Shown: piece after piece, positions 11,967 to 22,265 of the stretch
Position numbering within the stretch: position 1 is the stretch's first letter
How the letters are laid out: each line of letters starts with the position of its first letter
Source: Clostridia bacterium
GTDB lineage: Bacteria; Bacillota; Clostridia; Oscillospirales; CAG-272
Length of the DNA: 36,272 bases
NCBI GenBank assembly: GCA_017518975.1
Contig: JAFWTH010000101.1
Coordinates: 1-36,272, forward strand
Direction: 5' to 3'
Notes under the pieces: generated by a model
The model's database searches: none
What the model was told of the DNA's origin: nothing
Seen by the model: only the letters and a program-made list of their open reading frames with translations
Program-made: the position numbers and the translations under genes

Positions 11967-13268
11967 ATGCTTGACATCAAATTCTTAAGAGAGAATCCGG
12001 AAGCGGTAAAGGAAAACATCAAAAAGAAGTTCCAGGACGACAAGCTTCCGCTCGTCGACGAGGTCATCACGCTGGACGAGGCGAACCGCGCCGTAATGAA
12101 GGAAGCTGACGAACTGCGCGCGAACCGCAACAAGATCTCGAAGATGATCGGCGGCCTGATGGCGCAGGGCAAGCGCGAGGAGGCCGAGGAGGCGAAGCGC
12201 AAGGTCAGCGAGGAGTCCGCCGCTCTCGCCGCTCTCGAGCAGAAGGAAGAGCAGTTCGCGGAGCGCATCAGAAAGATAATGATGACGATCCCGAACATAA
12301 TCGACCCGTCCGTTCCGATAGGGAAGGACGACAGCGAAAACGTCGAAGTCGAACGCTTCGGCGAGCCGGTCGTTCCCGACTTCGAGATTCCGTACCACAC
12401 GGAGATCATGGAGGGCTTCGGCGGCATCGACCTCGACGGCGCGCGCCGCGTCGCGGGCAACGGCTTTTACTATCTGATCGGCGATATCGCAAGACTCCAC
12501 TCCGCCGTCATATCCTACGCGCGCGACTTCATGATCGGCCGCGGCTTCACCTACGTCGTCCCGCCTTTCATGATCCGCTCGGGCGTCGTCACCGGCGTCA
12601 TGAGCTTTGCCGAGATGGACGCGATGATGTACAAGATAGAGGACGAGGACCTCTACCTCATCGGCACGAGCGAACACTCGATGATCGGACGGTTCATCGA
12701 CCAGATAATCCCCGAGGACAAGCTCCCCTACACCCTCACGTCGTATTCCCCCTGCTTCCGCAAGGAAAAGGGCGCGCACGGCATCGAGGAGAGGGGCGTC
12801 TACCGCATCCACCAGTTCGAGAAGCAGGAGATGATCGTCGTCTGCCGTCCGGAGGAGAGCCCCGTGTGGTTCGACCGCCTGTGGCAGCACACCGTCGACC
12901 TGTTCAGGTCGCTCGATATCCCGGTCCGCACGCTCGAGTGCTGCTCCGGAGACCTCGCGGACCTCAAGGTCAAATCGGTCGACGTCGAGGCGTGGTCCCC
13001 GCGTCAGAAGAAGTATTTCGAGGTCGGCAGCTGCTCGAACCTCGGCGACGCGCAGGCGAGACGCCTCAAAATGAGAGTCGCGGACAAGAACGGAAAGAAG
13101 TACCTGCCGCACACGCTCAACAACACCGTCGTCGCTCCGCCGCGCATGCTGATCGCGTTCCTCGAGAACAACCTCTGCCCCGATATGTCGGTCAGGGTCC
13201 CGCAGCCGCTCCGCCCCTACATGGGCGGCAAGGAGATCCTCACTCCCAACCGCGGCCCGAGGGAATAA
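11967..13268 (+). CDS. serS: Serine-tRNA ligase
   Basis: A 433-residue class II aminoacyl-tRNA synthetase that charges tRNA-Ser. The N-terminal M-L-D-I-K-F-L-R-E-N-P start and the charged coiled coil (about 30-105) that grips the tRNA long arm are typical. The catalytic core shows G-T-S-E-H-S (about 228-233), motif 2 C-F-R-K-E-K-G-A-H-G (about 269-278), and motif 3 ending E-N-N. The core uses L-N-N-T-V-V-A-P-P-R where many bacterial enzymes have L-N-G-S-G-L-A-V-G-R, a recognised variant in my recollection. A GGCGG-type ribosome site is about 13 bases before ATG 11967, rather far. It begins 61 bases after the YitT gene with no clear promoter and no T-box leader, so it is likely the last gene of that operon. 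Confidence 0.96.
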   Translation: MLDIKFLRENPEAVKENIKKKFQDDKLPLVDEVITLDEANRAVMKEADELRANRNKISKMIGGLMAQGKREEAEEAKRKVSEESAALAALEQKEEQFAERIRKIMMTIPNIIDPSVPIGKDDSENVEVERFGEPVVPDFEIPYHTEIMEGFGGIDLDGARRVAGNGFYYLIGDIARLHSAVISYARDFMIGRGFTYVVPPFMIRSGVVTGVMSFAEMDAMMYKIEDEDLYLIGTSEHSMIGRFIDQIIPEDKLPYTLTSYSPCFRKEKGAHGIEERGVYRIHQFEKQEMIVVCRPEESPVWFDRLWQHTVDLFRSLDIPVRTLECCSGDLADLKVKSVDVEAWSPRQKKYFEVGSCSNLGDAQARRLKMRVADKNGKKYLPHTLNNTVVAPPRMLIAFLENNLCPDMSVRVPQPLRPYMGGKEILTPNRGPRE

Positions 13269-13306
13269 AAGAGCCGGGTAACCGACTGTTCTGAAGGATA
13301 TCGGCA

Positions 13307-13476
13307 GTTATGAGTTCTGGCTTTTTCGCAGAGCGAAAAAGCGCGTAACGTTATGAGCGCTGACGCGCGTTATGATCGGCGACGCCGAGTTATGAGTGCC
13401 TGCGGCACGTCCCCGGAACTCATATCATAACTTTGCGGTTCTGCCGCAAATCATAACTTGCACGCGAAGCGTGCAA
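13307..13476. repeat. Hairpin array punctuated by GTTATGA / TCATAAC
   Basis: Four GTTATGA words on the plus strand (13308, 13350, 13369, 13389) separate short hairpins with different stems. Then the word flips to TCATAAC (13425, 13451), again flanking hairpins (TTGCGG/CCGCAA; GCACGC/GCGTGC at 13460-13474). The hairpin near 13319-13342 has stem GCTTTTTCGC/GCGAAAAAGC. The array forms one large imperfect palindrome of small palindromes directly downstream of serS. It holds no credible gene. Confidence 0.7.
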
Positions 13477-13498
13477 TCTAAACTCTAAACTTTTTTGA

Positions 13499-13600
13499 GG
13501 ATTGACACACAAGCGTCCTGCTTGAGGCGGCTTAAGACAGAGATGCCGGCTGAAATAAGGATTCAGGTTCTTTATTTCAGCCGGTTTTCATTATCAATCC
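13499..13600 (+). other. Possible structured RNA region (speculative)
   Basis: GGATTGA (13499-13505) can pair with TCAATCC (13594-13600), enclosing about 88 bases that contain the 13-bp hairpin described separately. No promoter or known RNA motif is recognised, so this is only a structural remark. Confidence 0.2.
13546..13587 (+). terminator. Strong hairpin, likely terminator
   Basis: CCGGCTGAAATAA (13546-13558) and TTATTTCAGCCGG (13571-13583) form a perfect 13-bp stem with a 12-base loop, followed by TTTT. It is the first terminator-like structure after serS, about 280 bases downstream. Confidence 0.65.
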
Positions 13601-13674
13601 TTGAGAGTACCCTGCGTTCGCATTCCTGTTACCCTATTTGACCGGGGAACTGAACAAGCATTCCGCTACGTCAT

Positions 13675-13719
13675 TTTTTTCGGCAGATCTTATCCGAGAA
13701 TGATAATCTGCCGAAAAAA
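13675..13719. repeat. 14-bp inverted repeat with T tract first
   Basis: TTTTTTCGGCAGAT (13675-13688) pairs with ATCTGCCGAAAAAA (13706-13719) around a 17-base loop. The T run comes before the stem and the A run after it on both strands, the reverse of an intrinsic terminator. It marks the left side of the tandem-repeat region. Confidence 0.7.
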
Positions 13720-13730
13720 GTAACTAAAAA

Positions 13731-13831
13731 CTAAAGTTCACTTTAGAAAGTTTGCGTTTTTACGAAGTTTGTAAAGTGGACTTTAGAAAGTTTGAGTTTT
13801 CACGTATTATCCAAAGTTGACTTTAGAAAGT
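13731..13831. repeat. Three 40-bp tandem repeats with AAAGT/ACTTT operators
   Basis: Units begin at 13731, 13771 and 13811 (the last is partial). Each contains AAAGT, 2 bases, ACTTTAGAAAGTT, so the pentamer AAAGT and its complement alternate every 7 bases; CTTTAGAAAG is identical in all three. Units 1 and 2 also share GTTTT-N-ACG further on. They lie 35 bases upstream of the toxin-antitoxin promoter region and resemble regulator binding sites or iterons. Confidence 0.85.
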
Positions 13832-13865
13832 TCAAGCTGGAGAACTCGTTTTTTGATGTTAATAA

Positions 13866-13924
13866 TTGACAAAACTCACCTTTTGTGTTCAAATAGTTGA
13901 CAAAACGCACCGAATGAGTATAAT
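13866..13924 (+). promoter_or_regulatory. Toxin-antitoxin promoter with duplicated -35 block
   Basis: TTGACA (13897-13902), 16 bases, TATAAT (13919-13924). The block TTGACAAAACGCACC at 13897-13911 is repeated with one change at 13866-13880, 31 bases earlier. The earlier copy has only a poor -10 (TCAAAT), so it may be an operator or second promoter. Confidence 0.8.
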
Positions 13925-13946
13925 ATATAACAAGGAGGTGTTAAAA

Positions 13947-14246
13947 ATGGCACAGGCAACTTTCAGCGTCCGTATGGATGAAACGTTAAAGAAACAGTTT
14001 GACGGATTATGTCAGGAGTTCGGAATGAACGCATCCGTAGCGATCAACGTGTTTGCACGAGCAGTTGTCAGAGAACGCAGGATCCCGTTTGAAATAACCT
14101 CGTCCGACACGGAGATTACAAGAGACGGCGCGCTGCAGGCATTCAAAGCATTAAGAGCACAGGCGTCCGCAAACGGCGTAAGCGGTATGACTCTTGACGA
14201 GATAAACGATGAGATCAACCGTTCGCGAGAGGGTGTCGACGAATGA
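13947..14246 (+). CDS. RelB/DinJ family antitoxin
   Basis: A 99-residue antitoxin. The N terminus has the ribbon-helix-helix pattern of RelB/DinJ (A-T-F-S-V-R-M-D-E-T-L-K-K-Q-F, then G-M-N-A-S-V-A-I-N-V-F-A-R-A-V-V), which binds operator DNA as a dimer. The C-terminal part (about 50-99) is acidic and would wrap the toxin. AAGGAGGTG lies 6 bases before ATG 13947, an exceptionally good ribosome site. The in-frame TTG at 13866 falls in the promoter and is rejected. It overlaps the PIN toxin gene by four bases (ATGA), the normal antitoxin-first order. Likely autoregulated through the repeats upstream, though which element it binds is unknown. Confidence 0.9.
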   Translation: MAQATFSVRMDETLKKQFDGLCQEFGMNASVAINVFARAVVRERRIPFEITSSDTEITRDGALQAFKALRAQASANGVSGMTLDEINDEINRSREGVDE

Positions 14247-14659
14247 TCTGTTATGCGGTGATCGACACGAACGTTTTGGTATCCGCTTTGCTGTCTGCAA
14301 ACGACGAAGCGGCGACAGTCAAGGTGATCGAGAAACTGTTTCTGGGCGAGATCGTCCCGATCTACAGCAACGAGATCACAAAAGAGTACAGAGAAGTCCT
14401 CAACCGCAGGAAATTCAATTTTTCTCCGGAACTCGTCGATTATTCGCTCTCGGCGATTGAAAAGTTCGGTATTCTCGTTGATCCGACTCCGTCGGGCGTC
14501 ATCCTGCCGGATATGAAAGACGTTCCGTTCTATGAGGTCGTTCTCGAAAAGAAGGACGATAACGCTTATCTCGTCACCGGAAATATCAAGCATTTCCCGA
14601 AAGAACCTTTTGTCGTGACCCCGAGAGAATTGCTCGATATACTTGACAAAAAGAATTAG
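14243..14659 (+). CDS. PIN-domain toxin (COG1569 type)
   Basis: A 138-residue PIN-domain protein of the putative toxin group that pairs with RelB-like antitoxins; PIN toxins are Mg-dependent RNases. The first catalytic Asp is in V-I-D-T-N-V-L-V-S-A-L-L (D8); further acidic positions are S-N-E-I-T-K-E-Y and the segment P-D-M-K-D-V-P-F-Y-E-V-V-L, then Y-L-V-T-G-N-x-K-H-F-P, all typical of this group. All expected acidic residues appear present, so it looks intact. It is translationally coupled to the antitoxin and followed by a terminator. The RNA target is unknown. Confidence 0.9.
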   Translation: MICYAVIDTNVLVSALLSANDEAATVKVIEKLFLGEIVPIYSNEITKEYREVLNRRKFNFSPELVDYSLSAIEKFGILVDPTPSGVILPDMKDVPFYEVVLEKKDDNAYLVTGNIKHFPKEPFVVTPRELLDILDKKN

Positions 14660-14686
14660 TAACGCATTTTCTCAAATAAATAACAG

Positions 14687-14724
14687 GATCCCCGGCAAAA
14701 ATGCCGGGGATCTTCGCAATTTTT
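14687..14724. terminator. Convergent terminator, PIN toxin and DUF5677-like gene
   Basis: GATCCCCGGCA (14687-14697), a 4-base A-rich loop, TGCCGGGGATC (14702-14712), an 11-bp stem, then a T-rich tail to 14724. It lies between two convergent genes and probably stops transcription from both sides. Confidence 0.8.
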
Positions 14725-14729
14725 CGCCC

Positions 14730-15680
14730 TTAGTTAGTACTTCCATCTGTAAGTGTATTGAAAACACGGTAATAATCATTAACGGTTTTTTCCACCAAAT
14801 CGTATATTAAAAAACTTGATGAAGCAGAATCTGCGTTTGCCGATAATGAAAGGAATATCGTTGAAATAATTCCAAGCATATAAGCCGCTTGAGTAGCCGG
14901 AAGTGTAATTCCGTCTTCTACAGGTCCAATTGGAATTGGTTTGTTCATTTCAAGCCCTATTCTTCGTATTGTTCCGTTTACGCCTACATGTATAGGTAAA
15001 CAGGCGAGGTCTTTAACATCGCTCCATCCGCTTTTTGAAAAATCACACTGATCTTCTATATTTTTTGTAGATACAAAATCTTTACCGGTAAAACATTTTG
15101 CTTTATTTGCCCACTTATTATTGTTACTGTTGTTATCATACTCTAAAAAAGCCTTTGCAACATGTTCTCCGTTGTTATTTATGAACTCTGCATAACAAGT
15201 TATTTCATAAAGCGTTCGCCATCGGGCTAACGCGGCGTCAGGGAAACCATTTTCCACCAAACACATTATTTCTGCATAGACTTGAATTGCCCTTCCGACA
15301 AGGTGCTTTAAGCAAGAGAATGTGTATAACTTTTCAGTGTTTTCGTTTTTCAAAATATCATTTTCAATACGCTTTAAGTGTTTATTTGTCAAAACTGATA
15401 CTGAGACACGCAAGATAGTTGATAGTTCGAAACAGCGACCCCATTTTTCATTTATTCTGTTTTTAATCAAATAATTATCTTTTCTATCTGCTTCTATGAA
15501 TTCGTTTTGGGAATCAATTGTTGCGAGTTTTAATAATTCTGTTTTTTTAATCACAAAAGCACAAAAAGATGAAAACTCATCAGTTGAATTCGAGTTATTG
15601 AATAGGTGCATTATAGATTCTGGGTTAACTCTTTTTTCATGCTCAAATGCTTTAACCATTATTTCCTTCAAACTATTCAC
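14730..15680 (-). CDS. DUF5677-like protein, function unknown
   Basis: A 316-residue protein with a resemblance to the DUF5677 family: the central helical stretch A-x-x-V-Y-A-E-I-M-C-L-V-E-N-G-F-P-D-A-A-L-A-R-W-R-T-L-Y-E (about 155-185, shown with gaps) followed by a sequence with F-L-E-Y-D. No signal peptide; a hydrophobic stretch near the C terminus (about 275-290) could be a buried helix. Start GTG 15680 has AGGA 9 bases upstream; ATG 15659 is an alternative with closer spacing. The gene is very AT-rich (19 of 60 GC on the line at 15361) compared with flanking core genes, which points to transfer. It is divergent from mod and convergent with the toxin gene. A defence-related role is only a guess from its position. 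Confidence 0.6.
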   Translation of the reverse strand: MNSLKEIMVKAFEHEKRVNPESIMHLFNNSNSTDEFSSFCAFVIKKTELLKLATIDSQNEFIEADRKDNYLIKNRINEKWGRCFELSTILRVSVSVLTNKHLKRIENDILKNENTEKLYTFSCLKHLVGRAIQVYAEIMCLVENGFPDAALARWRTLYEITCYAEFINNNGEHVAKAFLEYDNNSNNNKWANKAKCFTGKDFVSTKNIEDQCDFSKSGWSDVKDLACLPIHVGVNGTIRRIGLEMNKPIPIGPVEDGITLPATQAAYMLGIISTIFLSLSANADSASSSFLIYDLVEKTVNDYYRVFNTLTDGSTN

Positions 15681-15744
15681 TATTAGATTTCCTTTCGTTA
15701 TGAAAAACTCATAGCGTTTTTCAGGAAGCAACTTGTTTTAGCAT

Positions 15745-15773
15745 AGTATATCATACTTGAAATTATCTGTCTA
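15745..15773 (-). promoter_or_regulatory. Promoter of the DUF5677-like gene
   Basis: On the minus strand, TAGACA (15773-15768), 17 bases, TATACT (15750-15745), with TG one base before the -10. Confidence 0.6.
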
Positions 15774-15846
15774 TTCGCTTTCTGCTTCGTTTAGTTCATC
15801 CGATTTGTAGAGAAAAACACTTTTTTTACCCTTTTCCGGCAAAAAG

Positions 15847-15855
15847 TGATATAAT
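15847..15855 (+). promoter_or_regulatory. Extended -10 promoter of mod-res
   Basis: TG-A-TATAAT (15847-15855) is a perfect extended -10. The -35 is weak (TTTACC near 15825). It lies 75 bases before mod. Confidence 0.6.
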
Positions 15856-15930
15856 GAATTTGATAGATTATTAGTTTTCTTGAGTTTTTTACACTGCGCG
15901 CTTTAATTCATAGATTGTGGGGAAATAAAG

Positions 15931-18036
15931 ATGGCGTCAATTCATAATCTTATAGATAAGATCGATAATCCGGAACTTCGAGAACAGATTGCTGCCGAAG
16001 TGGCTAAACTTGAAAAACAGAAAAAGTTCGGTCTCGTTTTCGAGGAACATTTGCCGGAGTGTACTGCACTGTATGATATCCCTGTCAAAAAAGGCGCGAA
16101 GGTGGCGCTGAAAAGCGGAAAAGTCAGCGATTGCTATACCGTTCTCAAAATTGAAGACGGAAAAGCGCTTTGCCTGAATCTGGACAAAAACGAAACGACG
16201 GAATTCAAAGTGGACGATCTCGTTTGTGTTGCGGAATTCGGGGATCCGATTTATCCGTATCTTGAACCTCTCGATACTGTTTGCAACGCTCCGGACAGCG
16301 ATCTGTGGCATACGTTGATTGAGGCGGACAACTACCACGCTCTGCAACTACTTGAATACCTGTATGCAGGGAAAGTGGATTGTATCTATATCGATCCTCC
16401 ATATAATACTCGAGCAAAAGATTGGAAATACAACAATGATTATGTAGATCCAAATGATTCATATCGTCATAGTAAATGGCTTGCTATGATGAAAAAACGT
16501 TTAATACTCGCCAAACGATTGTTGAATCCGTTTTGCTCCGTTCTAATAGTCACTATTGATGAAAAAGAATACTTGCATCTTGAATGTCTTTTGGAGGAGA
16601 TGTTTCCAGATTCAGGTATTCAGATGGTAAGTAGTGTTATAAATCCAAGCGGCGTCGCTCGCGGATCAGATTTTGGTAGGACAGATGAGTATATTTTCTT
16701 TGTAAAAATTGGAAAAGCAAAACCTGCTTTACTTCAGTTGTCAGATGAATGGAAAACAAGTAGTACTAAATCATCAGTGAAGCCAACATGGAGGACAGTT
16801 AGACGCCGTGGAGCTGGTGATTTGCGAAAAGACAGTCCGAATTTGTTTTATCCAATTGTAATTGATGATGAGACTGGTAGAATAATAAAAGCGGGTGAGT
16901 CATTACCGTTAAATGTTGAAAGATCTTCTGTCTGCTGTGATTGTAAAGGTGCATCTCTTATCTGGCCAATGAAACCTAACAATGTTGAGGGCCGATGGCA
17001 GTTAAGTCAAAAAGAACTTATGGAACGCCTTCAGAATGGTTATGTTCGGGTGGTCGCTAAAAACGAATATGGATGGGTGCCTACTTATCTCGCAAAAGGT
17101 GAGATCCAGAAGGTCAAAAATGGAACATACGAAATTCTTGGAAGAGGTGGGGCAAATAACGAATTGCATCTTTCAGGAGAAGAAGGGGATCAGCGCTTTA
17201 TTCCGGGCAGTCAATGGAGGATTAAGGCTCATAATGCGAGAGAGTGTGGGAGCGTATATTTAAACAATATTATTGGAACCGATAAATTCGACTTTCCCAA
17301 ATCGCTATATGCCGAACATGATGCTATTCGCTTCTTTGTTGCAAACAATCCCAACGCCCTTATCGTGGATTTTTTCGCCGGTTCTGGTACAACACTTCAC
17401 GCTGTAAATCTACTGAATGCAGAAGATGACGGACATCGGCGCTGTATTCTTGTAACAAACAACGAAGTATCTGATTCAGAAGCAAAGGAAATGAGGGCAA
17501 GAGGTCTTAATCCCGGAGACGATGAGTGGGAAAAACTCGGTATCGCCCGCTATGTAACATGGCCGCGCACGGTTTGCTCTATTGAAGGGCATGATGTCAA
17601 TGGCAATCCGTTGAAAGGGAATTATATCGGTAGCGACATTCCGATGGCGGACGGTTTCAAAGCGAACGCTGCTTTCTTCAAACTTGGTTTCCTCGATAAA
17701 ACAAAAGTATCCCTCGGCAGACAGTTCAAAGAAATGCTTCCGACTTTATGGATGAAAGCGGGGGCGCACGGTCCTTGTCCCTCCGTCGAAGAAGGCGTGC
17801 CTTCAATGTTGATTTTGCCTGAGAATAAGATGGCGATTCTGAACGATGAAAACTGTTTCGGTGAGTTTGTCGGCCGGCTTGCAGATTATTCGGGAATTGA
17901 CGTTGTTTATCTCGTAACCGATTATGAAGCCGGTTATGCTTCTATGTCAGCGGCGCTTCCGGGCAAAAAAACATATCAGTTGTACCGGGACTATCTCGAT
18001 AACTTCCGTATCAATGCGGGGAGGAACGTAAGATGA
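15931..18036 (+). CDS. Type III-like DNA methyltransferase (Mod)
   Basis: A 701-residue site-specific methyltransferase, most likely adenine-N6, partner of the helicase-nuclease downstream. The catalytic motif IV D-P-P-Y (155-158) comes before the AdoMet-binding motif F-F-A-G-S-G-T-T (about 481-488), the beta-class order used by type III Mod proteins. Between them lie a W-R-T-V-R-R-R-G segment and Y-P-I typical of Mod, and the likely target-recognition part. An N-terminal extension of 150 residues and a 200-residue C-terminal tail complete it. Start ATG 15931 follows GGGGAAA. The stop overlaps the res start as ATGA. Base use is uneven: the centre (about 16385-17370) is much more AT-rich than the ends. 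All motifs are intact. Confidence 0.88.
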   Translation: MASIHNLIDKIDNPELREQIAAEVAKLEKQKKFGLVFEEHLPECTALYDIPVKKGAKVALKSGKVSDCYTVLKIEDGKALCLNLDKNETTEFKVDDLVCVAEFGDPIYPYLEPLDTVCNAPDSDLWHTLIEADNYHALQLLEYLYAGKVDCIYIDPPYNTRAKDWKYNNDYVDPNDSYRHSKWLAMMKKRLILAKRLLNPFCSVLIVTIDEKEYLHLECLLEEMFPDSGIQMVSSVINPSGVARGSDFGRTDEYIFFVKIGKAKPALLQLSDEWKTSSTKSSVKPTWRTVRRRGAGDLRKDSPNLFYPIVIDDETGRIIKAGESLPLNVERSSVCCDCKGASLIWPMKPNNVEGRWQLSQKELMERLQNGYVRVVAKNEYGWVPTYLAKGEIQKVKNGTYEILGRGGANNELHLSGEEGDQRFIPGSQWRIKAHNARECGSVYLNNIIGTDKFDFPKSLYAEHDAIRFFVANNPNALIVDFFAGSGTTLHAVNLLNAEDDGHRRCILVTNNEVSDSEAKEMRARGLNPGDDEWEKLGIARYVTWPRTVCSIEGHDVNGNPLKGNYIGSDIPMADGFKANAAFFKLGFLDKTKVSLGRQFKEMLPTLWMKAGAHGPCPSVEEGVPSMLILPENKMAILNDENCFGEFVGRLADYSGIDVVYLVTDYEAGYASMSAALPGKKTYQLYRDYLDNFRINAGRNVR

Positions 18037-20864
18037 ACGTAAATCTCATATCCTTCCAAGATAAAGCCGTAAAAGAGCTGCGCGTGGATATTGCCGACGC
18101 GCTCGATACTTATCGCCGCAGGCAGAAAACGCAGGTAGTCTCGCTTCAGGCGCCCACCGGAGCGGGCAAAACAATAATCGCCGCCGCTTTGATCGAGAGT
18201 ATTTATTTCGGTATGACTCTTCCCGACGGAACAGCGTTCAATGAGCAGCCGGAAGCGATTTTCGTCTGGCTCTCTGACTCACCTGAACTTAACGAACAGT
18301 CTAAGCAGAAAATTGAACTGAAAACGGACAAATTGCGTTTCGGTCAGTGCGTTACCATTTCAGAAGACTCTTTTGATATGGAAATGCTTGAAGACGGTAA
18401 AATCTATTTTCTTAACACCCAGAAAATCAGCAGAAACGGAAAGCTGACCCAGCACGCAGACATGCGGTTACATACGATATGGGAAACTCTTGAAAATACG
18501 ATTCAGAACAAATCCGACAGATTATATTTCATCATAGACGAAGCGCACCGCGGAGCGAAATCCCGGCGCGAAGCTGGAACTGATACCACGATCATGCAGC
18601 GTTTCATCAAAGGATATGAACATATTGAGGACGGCGTAAAATACAAAATGCATTCAATGCCTGTCGTCCTCGGCATAAGCGCCACCGCGGAACGGTTCAA
18701 TACTCTGATCGGTAATACCGCAAACGTCGGTTTGCAGAAATATGTTGTTACAGCGGACGAAGTTCGCGGCTCGGGCTTGTTGAAAGACCGTATCGTTATT
18801 ACTTATCCGGATGATCCGAAAAGGAATAATGATATTATTCTTTTGGAAGCGGCTGTTGAAGAGTGGATGAAAAAGTGCAAAAGATGGAAACAATATACCA
18901 CTGAACAGCATTACAGCAATGTCGATCCCGTTCTTGTCGTTCAGGTCTGTCAGGGAAGCGGCGGAGCGATTTCCGACACAAATCTTGAGGACGCTCTTGC
19001 AAAGATCGAGGAAAAAGTCGGGTCTCATTTCAGAGAAGGAGAAGTTGTACACTGCTTTGGAGAAGGAACGACTTTAGAACTGCATGGGCTTAAAATACCG
19101 CATGCAAAAGCTTCCGAGATTGCGGACGATCACAGGATCAAAGTGGTTTTCTTCAAGGAGGCGTTGTCTACCGGATGGGACTGTCCCAGAGCTGAAACGA
19201 TGATGTCTTATGCGGTTCGAAACGATCCCACGTATATTGCGCAGCTTCTTGGCAGAATGGTGAGAACTCCTCTTCAGATGCGCGTTTCGCGCGATGAATT
19301 TCTGAATGACGTCAAGCTTTACCTTCCTCATTTTGACAAGGATACTGTAAAAAGAGTTGTTGACGATCTTCAATCAAACGAGGGCGGGGAGATACCAACC
19401 GAAATCAATGGGGAATCGCTGGAAGAGCCGTCTTTCGTTACTTGGACTGTACATACGAAGAGTAGAACTCGTCCACCTGAAACGCCCACAGATCAAATTG
19501 AGCTGCCTGCTGATAACAATGACGAATCGAAAGACCCCGTCAATACAAATGATTCTCCCGATACCACGGTAACTGTCAACGGCGAACCGAAAATGCCGAA
19601 AGATGAACCGTCGCATACTGTTCAGATTCCTGTTGTATCCATAAAGCAACAGATGCCGGAGCCTGTTGTTCCGCTGGGCAAACAACTTACCTTTGCGCCG
19701 GATTTTGACCGCGTGGAAATTATTGACTTTATCAATGGTAAGGGCTTTTTGAATTATTTTGTCCGTCAGGACAGGATCAACGATTATCTGAAATCGCTTC
19801 TTGACCTCGCAACGATGCTGACGCACAATATGATCTATCAAAATGCACGAGAAGAGGTTATTGATGATGTTGTCGGGTTGATCCGAGCTTACGTGGACGG
19901 TCTGCATCATACCGGACGTTATAGCGGTTTGGCTGATCAAGTACTGCAGTTCAAGCTGTCCGTTCAGGTATTTGATCCTTTTGGGCAGACTATAAAAGAG
20001 GTTTATTCAAAAGACTATACTTTAATGTCTGAAACCGATCTTGACAGACAAGTACGCAATGCGGATGCAAAACTCGGCCGGTACGGTTTTCCGAACATTT
20101 ACGGAAGCAGGTATTACAACGAGGACGATCCGAATGCGCATAAAATCGATTGCGTTCTTTATGCTGCCGACGATGCGAGCAGAGCAAAGCTCGGAGAATA
20201 CGCGAAAGAGAAGTTGAGAGATTTTTCACGTAAATATCGGGTCGCGATCGCTAACAAATCTGACTCGTGCAAGAGGGAATACCGTCGTATTATGGCGGAC
20301 AGTGCCGTTGTCAGCGAACAGCTTTTCGCGATTCCGGAAAATATAGTCGTACGCGAAGATCCCGACGGCAAGGAGTATGAAAATCATCTCCTCGCGTCGC
20401 AGGAGACCGGAATTGCAAAAATCAAACTTAACGGTTGGGAAGCGGATCTGATAGAGGAAGAATCTCGTCGAAACGATTTCATCTGTTGGTTAAGGAATCC
20501 GTCAAAGGCATCATGGGGGCTGTGTTTGCCGTATGATATGAACGGCGAAAAGAAATCGTTTTACCCCGATTTCTTGATCGTGCGCAGCGATCCGATAGTT
20601 GATTATGTCGTTGACGTATTAGAGCCTCATGGGAACCAGTATGCCGACAATCTTCCGAAAGCCAAAGCGCTTGCCAAATATGCACAGGAGGAAACGAGTC
20701 TAGGTAGGATTCAACTGATTCACAAAACAACCGATGCGGGCGGAAATCGCTTCATTCGTTTGGATTTAACCGATATTGCCGTAAGAGATAAAGTTCTTCA
20801 CGCAAATACTGACGATGAATTGAACAATATCTTTTCAAACTACGGTTTTTCGGGAGAGGAATGA
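18033..20864 (+). CDS. Type III-like restriction helicase-nuclease (Res)
   Basis: A 943-residue superfamily 2 helicase with a C-terminal nuclease-like domain. Walker A is A-P-T-G-A-G-K-T (40-47), the DEAH box is at about 168-172, S-A-T-A-E-R-F at about 214-220, then S-T-G-W-D-C-P-R-A-E and Q-L-L-G-R-M-V-R-T-P (about 375-412). A proline- and acid-rich low-complexity linker (about 475-540) separates the helicase from the C-terminal half. Near the end, Y-P-D-F-L-I-V (about 843) and V-V-D-V-L-E-P-H-G (about 860-868) sit where type III enzymes have PD...(D/E)xK, with the usual Lys replaced by His. It is coupled to mod by ATGA overlap and followed by a strong terminator, so mod-res form a complete two-gene unit. 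Confidence 0.87.
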   Translation: MNVNLISFQDKAVKELRVDIADALDTYRRRQKTQVVSLQAPTGAGKTIIAAALIESIYFGMTLPDGTAFNEQPEAIFVWLSDSPELNEQSKQKIELKTDKLRFGQCVTISEDSFDMEMLEDGKIYFLNTQKISRNGKLTQHADMRLHTIWETLENTIQNKSDRLYFIIDEAHRGAKSRREAGTDTTIMQRFIKGYEHIEDGVKYKMHSMPVVLGISATAERFNTLIGNTANVGLQKYVVTADEVRGSGLLKDRIVITYPDDPKRNNDIILLEAAVEEWMKKCKRWKQYTTEQHYSNVDPVLVVQVCQGSGGAISDTNLEDALAKIEEKVGSHFREGEVVHCFGEGTTLELHGLKIPHAKASEIADDHRIKVVFFKEALSTGWDCPRAETMMSYAVRNDPTYIAQLLGRMVRTPLQMRVSRDEFLNDVKLYLPHFDKDTVKRVVDDLQSNEGGEIPTEINGESLEEPSFVTWTVHTKSRTRPPETPTDQIELPADNNDESKDPVNTNDSPDTTVTVNGEPKMPKDEPSHTVQIPVVSIKQQMPEPVVPLGKQLTFAPDFDRVEIIDFINGKGFLNYFVRQDRINDYLKSLLDLATMLTHNMIYQNAREEVIDDVVGLIRAYVDGLHHTGRYSGLADQVLQFKLSVQVFDPFGQTIKEVYSKDYTLMSETDLDRQVRNADAKLGRYGFPNIYGSRYYNEDDPNAHKIDCVLYAADDASRAKLGEYAKEKLRDFSRKYRVAIANKSDSCKREYRRIMADSAVVSEQLFAIPENIVVREDPDGKEYENHLLASQETGIAKIKLNGWEADLIEEESRRNDFICWLRNPSKASWGLCLPYDMNGEKKSFYPDFLIVRSDPIVDYVVDVLEPHGNQYADNLPKAKALAKYAQEETSLGRIQLIHKTTDAGGNRFIRLDLTDIAVRDKVLHANTDDELNNIFSNYGFSGEE

Positions 20865-20890
20865 TTCGTTTTTCTCGGGTAAAAAGATAC

Positions 20891-20922
20891 AAAAACGGGC
20901 GGGAAATCGCCCGTTTTTTTTT
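20891..20922. terminator. Terminator of mod-res
   Basis: ACGGGCG (20895-20901), 6-base loop, CGCCCGT (20908-20914), followed by a T run to 20922 and preceded by an A run. It closes the accessory island. Confidence 0.93.
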
Positions 20923-20955
20923 CGTTCCGCGGGGCGAAATCGGCGTCGAAAACCG

Positions 20956-20985
20956 TTGACATATTGTATATTTATATGGTACAAT
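20956..20985 (+). promoter_or_regulatory. Promoter of the pyr-pur cluster
   Basis: TTGACA (20956-20961), 18 bases, TACAAT (20980-20985), 32 bases before pyrC. The leader is too short for a PyrR-type attenuator. Confidence 0.82.
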
Positions 20986-21017
20986 TTTTACGTAATTAAA
21001 CATACGGAGGGAAAGCG

Positions 21018-22265
21018 ATGGCATGCCTTGAGAGATTCGCCGAAATTGCCTGCTCGCTCCCCCCGCTGTCCTCTGTCAGGGAGGAGTTCACTTCTGCCGA
21101 AGTGCCCTCTGCCCCGAAAAACGGAATAACTGTACTCCCCGGCTTGGTCGACGTGCACGTGCACCTTCGAGAGCCGGGATTTTTGTATAAAGAAACGGTC
21201 GCGTCGGGGACTCTCGCCGCGGCGGCGGGCGGCTACGTCGCCGTCTGCCCGATGCCGAACGTCTCGCCGGTCCCGGACTCTCTTTCGGCGCTTGGACCGA
21301 CGCTCGCGGCGATCGAAAAGGACGCCGTCGTTCGCGTTTATCCCTACGGCTCGATCACCCGCGGCGAGCGCGGCGAGGAGGTCTCGGATCTGTCCGGGAT
21401 CGCCCCGTACGTGGTCGGATTCTCCGACGACGGAGTCGGCCTCGAAGACGCCGCCATCATGAAAGAAGCTATGACCCGGGCAGCCGCTCTCGGCAAACCC
21501 GTCGCCGCGCACTGCGAAGACCTCACCCTTCGGGCGGGCGGGTATATCAACGACGGGCAGTACGCCCGCCTTCACGGTCACCGCGGCATTTCCGCCGAAA
21601 GCGAATGGCGGCAGATCGAGCGCGACCTCGCGCTCGCCCGCGAAACGGGCGTTTCCTATCACGTCTGCCACGTCTCGACGAAAGAGAGCGTCGTGCTCAT
21701 CCGCGCCGCGAAGGCGGAGGGCGTCGACGTCACGTGCGAGACCGCGCCTCACTACCTTGTTCTTTCCGACGCCGACCTTCGCGAGGACGGCGACTTTAAG
21801 ATGAACCCGCCGCTCCGCTCGGAGTCCGACCGCCTCGCGCTGATCGAAGGGCTGCTCGACGGAACCGTCGACATGATCGCCACCGACCACGCTCCGCACT
21901 CTGTGGCGGAGAAATCGCGGGGGCTTCGCGACTCCCTGATGGGTGTCGTCGGGCTCGAGACCGCTTTCCCGGTCCTGTACACGAAACTCGTCCTCGGCGG
22001 CGTCCTGCCGCTCTCCCGCCTCGTCGAGCTGATGAGCGGCGCGCCCGCGCGCCGTTTCCGGATCCCGCGCGATCCCGAAAACGACTGGGCGGTGTGGGAC
22101 CTCTCCGAGGAATACACGGTTGACCCCGACGCCTTCAAGTCGAAGGGCAGAAGCACCCCGTTCAAGGGCATGAGCGTTTTCGGCAAATGTAAAATGACGG
22201 TCTGCGGAGGCCGCGCCGTCTGGCGCGAGCCGGGCTTCGACCCTTCATTCCTCTTCAAAGCGTAG
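21018..22265 (+). CDS. pyrC: Dihydroorotase
   Basis: A 415-residue zinc amidohydrolase closing carbamoyl aspartate to dihydroorotate, third step of pyrimidine synthesis. The metal-binding D-V-H-V-H-L-R-E-P-G (about 45-54), H-C-E-D (about 160), H-V-C-H-V-S-T (about 216), and T-D-H-A-P-H (about 293) are all present. The segment G-F-S-D-D-G with two Asp stands where some amidohydrolases have a carbamylated Lys; class I dihydroorotases vary here. GGAGG lies 7 bases before ATG 21018. It opens the long nucleotide cluster behind its own promoter and is separated from pyrK by a 276-base stretch of palindromic repeats. Confidence 0.95.
   Translation: MACLERFAEIACSLPPLSSVREEFTSAEVPSAPKNGITVLPGLVDVHVHLREPGFLYKETVASGTLAAAAGGYVAVCPMPNVSPVPDSLSALGPTLAAIEKDAVVRVYPYGSITRGERGEEVSDLSGIAPYVVGFSDDGVGLEDAAIMKEAMTRAAALGKPVAAHCEDLTLRAGGYINDGQYARLHGHRGISAESEWRQIERDLALARETGVSYHVCHVSTKESVVLIRAAKAEGVDVTCETAPHYLVLSDADLREDGDFKMNPPLRSESDRLALIEGLLDGTVDMIATDHAPHSVAEKSRGLRDSLMGVVGLETAFPVLYTKLVLGGVLPLSRLVELMSGAPARRFRIPRDPENDWAVWDLSEEYTVDPDAFKSKGRSTPFKGMSVFGKCKMTVCGGRAVWREPGFDPSFLFKA

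Follow-up and report, generated by a model that had tools for sequence, protein, structure and literature searches.

The mod-res operon

The window, meaning the whole stretch of 36,272 nucleotides from a Clostridia bacterium (contig JAFWTH010000101.1), contains a type III restriction-modification operon in which the gene at 15931-18036 is a type III mod, followed by res. The features considered in this work are listed below.

13273-20867, no strand assigned: AT-rich island between serS and pyrC, where homology to same-genus genomes breaks off and returns (353-bp gap in genome G173)
15931-18036, forward strand: mod, type III DNA methyltransferase, 701 aa
16381-16605, forward strand: motif IV-VIII block, aa 151-225, the most conserved part of the protein, with unusually AT-rich codons here
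16393-16404, forward strand: DPPY, aa 155-158, where the 5' edge of the GC3 drop fits best
16606-17250, forward strand: target recognition domain (TRD), aa 226-440, divergent and AT-rich
17374-17394, forward strand: FAGSGTT, motif I, aa 482-488
18033-20864, forward strand: res, type III restriction subunit, 943 aa, overlapping mod by 4 bp

Mod matches the PADLOC profile MTase_III PDLC03645 with an E-value of 1.5e-169, and its motifs run from DPPY (motif IV, aa 155) through the TRD to FAGSGTT (motif I, aa 482), as in beta-group amino methyltransferases. The best PDB matches of its AlphaFold model (mean pLDDT 84), obtained with Foldseek, are 6k0w, Mbo45V (7dsu) and EcoP15I (4zcf). Res has a Pfam ResIII match and carries the SF2 helicase motifs GAGKT (aa 43) and DEAH (aa 169). 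At 20562-20630 (aa 844-866) it also presents the arrangement PD-x17-E-x-H, in which H replaces the K of the usual PD-x17-(D/E)xK endonuclease motif. The EPH of this endonuclease-like motif is invariant across about 45 Res relatives, with a conserved DNL.KAK downstream, and the model of the Res C-terminal part weakly resembles PD-(D/E)XK folds such as Cas4, TnsA and Holliday-junction nucleases (best E-value 8.5e-3).

No further copies of mod were detected in its own genome, and no tandem repeats were found inside the gene; the four present in 13000-21100 all lie at 13349-13911. Simple sequence repeats for on/off switching, by which a phasevarion is recognized, are therefore not a feature of this mod.

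Genomic context of the operon

Comparison with same-genus genomes places the end of homology at about 13272 and its return at about 20868, and in G173 the distance between serS and pyrC is 353 bp, which leaves the site empty. In the sister genome G210, whose SerS and PyrC are 98% identical to those of the window, this position is occupied by the same RelB-PIN pair and a DUF5677 gene, with genes for a trypsin-like protease and for a zinc-ribbon/TPR protein in place of mod-res; the cargo in the window consists of RelB-PIN, DUF5677 and mod-res. The gap between serS and pyrC (13273-20867; L175) thus looks like a cargo hotspot. A search of the genus's 11 other genomes revealed no relative of the window's Mod. 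Immediately ahead of the RelB-PIN pair on the upstream side, a 40-bp unit is repeated in tandem in 2.5 copies (13731-13832), and a similar sequence occupies the same place in G210.

The original prediction described the ends of mod as resident-like. Their GC3 is about 0.47, equivalent to that of res (0.48) and far below the values of serS (0.87) and pyrC (0.80); therefore, the ends do not resemble the resident genes, and the whole mod-res operon is foreign and was horizontally acquired.

Regional divergence among Mod relatives

The comparison set comprised 80 loci from genomes, 42-62% identical, 17 loci from viral contigs and further ones taken from whole genomes. Loci were picked by peptide patterns, two of which fall within the TRD, and the sample may be biased for this reason. 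The Mod relatives encoded by the 17 viral-contig loci (L128-L144) are 39-60% identical; such systems may therefore travel with phages or prophages.

Identity to the nearest relatives varies strongly along the protein: 59-83% in the N-terminal part, 79-92% in the motif IV-VIII block, 27-41% in the TRD, 60-82% in the motif X-I region and 59-80% in the C-terminal part. Equal divergence along the full gene, named beforehand as an outcome that would count against a swap, was looked for and is absent. In several pairs, identity falls at about codons 217-265 and returns at about codons 457-490. These regional values identify the catalytic block as the least foreign part of Mod and the TRD as the divergent one, and the description of the catalytic core as foreign has to be abandoned at the protein level.

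Composition profile of the window's mod

A recount of GC per 60-nucleotide line gave exactly the values reported earlier (31 at 16081, 19 at 16441 and 29 at 17941). GC3 amounts to 0.47 in the N-terminal end of mod, 0.31 across 16387-17370 and 0.46 in the C-terminal end. A three-part fit to GC3 reached 13.7 and exceeded all 60 codon shuffles (maximum 11.4). The corresponding fit to total GC reached 7.1 and did not (maximum 10.1 in 60 shuffles); the total-GC step was consequently rejected as stand-alone evidence. The 5' edge of the GC3 drop falls best at codon 155 (interval 134-161, nucleotides 16330-16413), which encodes the D of DPPY, as had been proposed. The proposed end of the AT-rich block at FAGSGTT is permitted, within a loose 3' edge whose best position is codon 527 and whose interval extends from 361 to 555.

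One reading of this profile is a recent event: recombination within motifs IV and I would have brought in the complete catalytic and recognition core from an AT-rich donor. Besides the step at DPPY, this reading draws on the motif IV-VIII block, which has the fourth lowest adjusted GC3 among 81 genes. The low-GC3 block of the window's mod begins about 75 codons ahead of the usual TRD edge. The commonest 5' edges in relatives lie at codons 200-240, and about one fifth lie upstream of codon 160. In a nearest-relative scan, the closest partner changes along the window's mod and is L008 at codons 121-220; within this segment, 17 of 18 synonymous codons at 164-182 are common to both genes (scan-corrected p = 0.08).

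Against it, most relatives also have AT-rich cores, strongly so in 61 of 79 genes, which is an outcome that the original prediction had itself set in advance as contradicting a swap in this gene. Therefore, composition alone cannot demonstrate a recent swap here; an AT-rich TRD is typical of these modules throughout the family and does not mark anything exceptional in this genome. Moreover, the protein sequence of the motif IV-VIII block is highly conserved everywhere, and a recombination-tract test against all relatives yielded no significant result, either for the longest exact run (p = 0.55) or, with mismatches allowed, for the L008 tract (p = 0.08). The 3' edge is spread over almost 200 codons, and no donor of the window's TRD was found: the best match is about 42% identical among 391 class-level genomes searched by DNA, 398 phylum-level genomes searched by protein, and plasmid and phage collections. 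A recent import of the core is thus conceivable, at somewhat worse than even odds.

Evidence for exchange of recognition domains

Direct comparisons of pairs reveal both signatures of domain exchange. L019 and its relatives L024 and L025 have ends that are 90-94% identical and TRDs that are only 29-32% identical; conversely, the TRDs of L042 and L043 are 76% identical to that of L070, with ends at 43-50%. Between L008 and L020 the TRDs are 89% identical, and between L002 and L005 86%. Phylogenies of the two parts disagree as well. In the tree of the ends, the window falls in a 10-member clade with an SH-aLRT value of 99, and in eight of the other members of this clade the Res proteins are 72-79% identical. 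On TRD data, AU tests rejected this clade (p = 8.5e-5) and the grouping of the window with L112 and L008 (p = 3.8e-69), and on ends data they rejected the grouping of L042, L043 and L070 (p = 6e-49); these p values are optimistic, as the groups were chosen after the trees and pair tables had been inspected. For L019, L024 and L025, the AU test did not reach significance with TRD data (p = 0.07), despite the low TRD identity of L019. Recombination hotspots would produce peaks of synonymous conservation at motifs IV and I; across distant pairs neither motif showed one, and the small excesses fell within the TRD and within aa 451-470.

The conflict between trees supports a TRD history in the window that differs from that of its ends. 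Since the best TRD match is so distant, the window's own event is deduced from this conflict and was not seen directly. For the Mod family, the proposal that recognition domains are swapped while the ends and Res are retained holds on these comparisons: pair identities and conflicting trees agree with it, and Res tracks the ends.

A history free of exchange would attribute the pattern to faster TRD evolution under diversifying selection, with AT-rich codons arising from relaxed codon selection, and the TRD is indeed both poorly conserved and AT-rich throughout the family. However, poorly conserved bins outside the TRD have no AT shift (+0.005), and the AU tests reject a single shared history. 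If the TRD diverged rapidly with no recombination, its identity would fall as well, but the similar TRDs of distant Mods would stay unexplained. We consider this explanation very improbable.

Composition of the TRD across the family

When genes are divided into bins of 25 codons, GC3 in the family deviates by -0.14 to -0.20 over approximately aa 226-475 and by little elsewhere. Among 69 closer genes, TRD GC3 is 0.28 (SD 0.06), compared with 0.45 (SD 0.13) for the ends, and a lower TRD GC3 also occurs in 16 of 18 other Mods, mostly from other subfamilies. Regression on the GC3 of the ends, without phylogenetic correction, gave a slope of 0.24 for the TRD and 0.90 for the motif IV-VIII block; the TRD slope becomes 0.56, likewise uncorrected, once distant high-GC members join.

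The narrow range of TRD GC3 across hosts might suggest that amino-acid make-up or a fold constraint forces AT-rich codons, but this is very improbable, as the bias persists in 78 of 81 genes once amino-acid make-up is corrected for and a shared TRD type is encoded at GC3 0.70 in L070 and at only 0.34 in L042 and 0.27 in L043. The latter comparison is a natural case of TRD amelioration, from which it follows that TRDs can ameliorate and that AT-rich codons are not imposed by the fold.

A broader and unlikely interpretation is that type III TRDs circulate as a pool of modules and that their codon composition is largely decoupled from that of their genes and hosts, either because replacement outpaces amelioration in most lineages or because TRDs seldom meet a homologous partner and so forgo the GC gain linked to recombination. 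If it were true, the composition dip would mark specificity exchange in general. The weak coupling between the composition of the TRD and that of the remaining gene can be measured, and the same pattern could be tested in type I and type II systems.

Proposed history of the locus

The explanation that best accommodates these observations, to which we assign a probability of roughly 0.87, is that a type III restriction-modification operon arrived on a mobile AT-rich island and that its TRD has been replaced over time by homologous recombination in conserved flanks. According to this model, Mod would methylate one strand of a short asymmetric site chosen by the TRD lying between motifs IV and I, and Res would restrict using that same Mod. 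Homologous recombination in the conserved flanking sequence would replace the TRD over time, conferring a new specificity while leaving the Mod frame and the Res partner unchanged. We infer that the route of exchange was recombination in the flanking motifs and that TRD replacement changed the specificity. It is plausible that the window's last exchange took motif IV along, which would place its 5' edge at DPPY.

Comparison with known type III systems

Our results extend type III specificity exchange, known mainly in pathogens whose mod genes are phase-variable, to a Mod-Res family found in gut Clostridia and in other phyla. They also indicate that an AT-rich recognition core is the rule in this family, and that a GC dip alone is no proof of recent transfer.

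A close precedent is modA of Neisseria and Haemophilus, which likewise encodes a type III Mod whose ends are conserved (DPPY, FxGxG) and whose variable recognition domain is exchanged en bloc. Such exchange of the modA recognition domain occurs also between species, and the modA12 recognition domain has a lower GC content than the 5' and 3' parts of the gene (Gawthorne 2012, PMC3311624). Unlike modA, which is phase-variable through simple repeats, the window's mod has no tandem repeat, and the hosts of its family are mainly gut Clostridia. Both TRD swapping and the GC dip are thus already published for modA, and the broad decoupling of TRD composition adds modestly to what they describe.

Recombination at the sequences that encode conserved methyltransferase motifs lets type III TRDs move (Furuta 2014, PMC3983042), and the same paper summarises, for the type III Mods of Helicobacter pylori, movement between Mods at conserved motifs and across species, similar to what we propose here. 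The window differs from the Helicobacter pylori case in lacking both an identified donor gene and a detected second copy of mod in its genome. Finally, the EcoP15I and Mbo45V Mods (4zcf, 7dsu) are only distantly similar in sequence, at 15-20% in structure alignments, but share with the window's Mod the same methyltransferase fold and the motif order IV-TRD-I.
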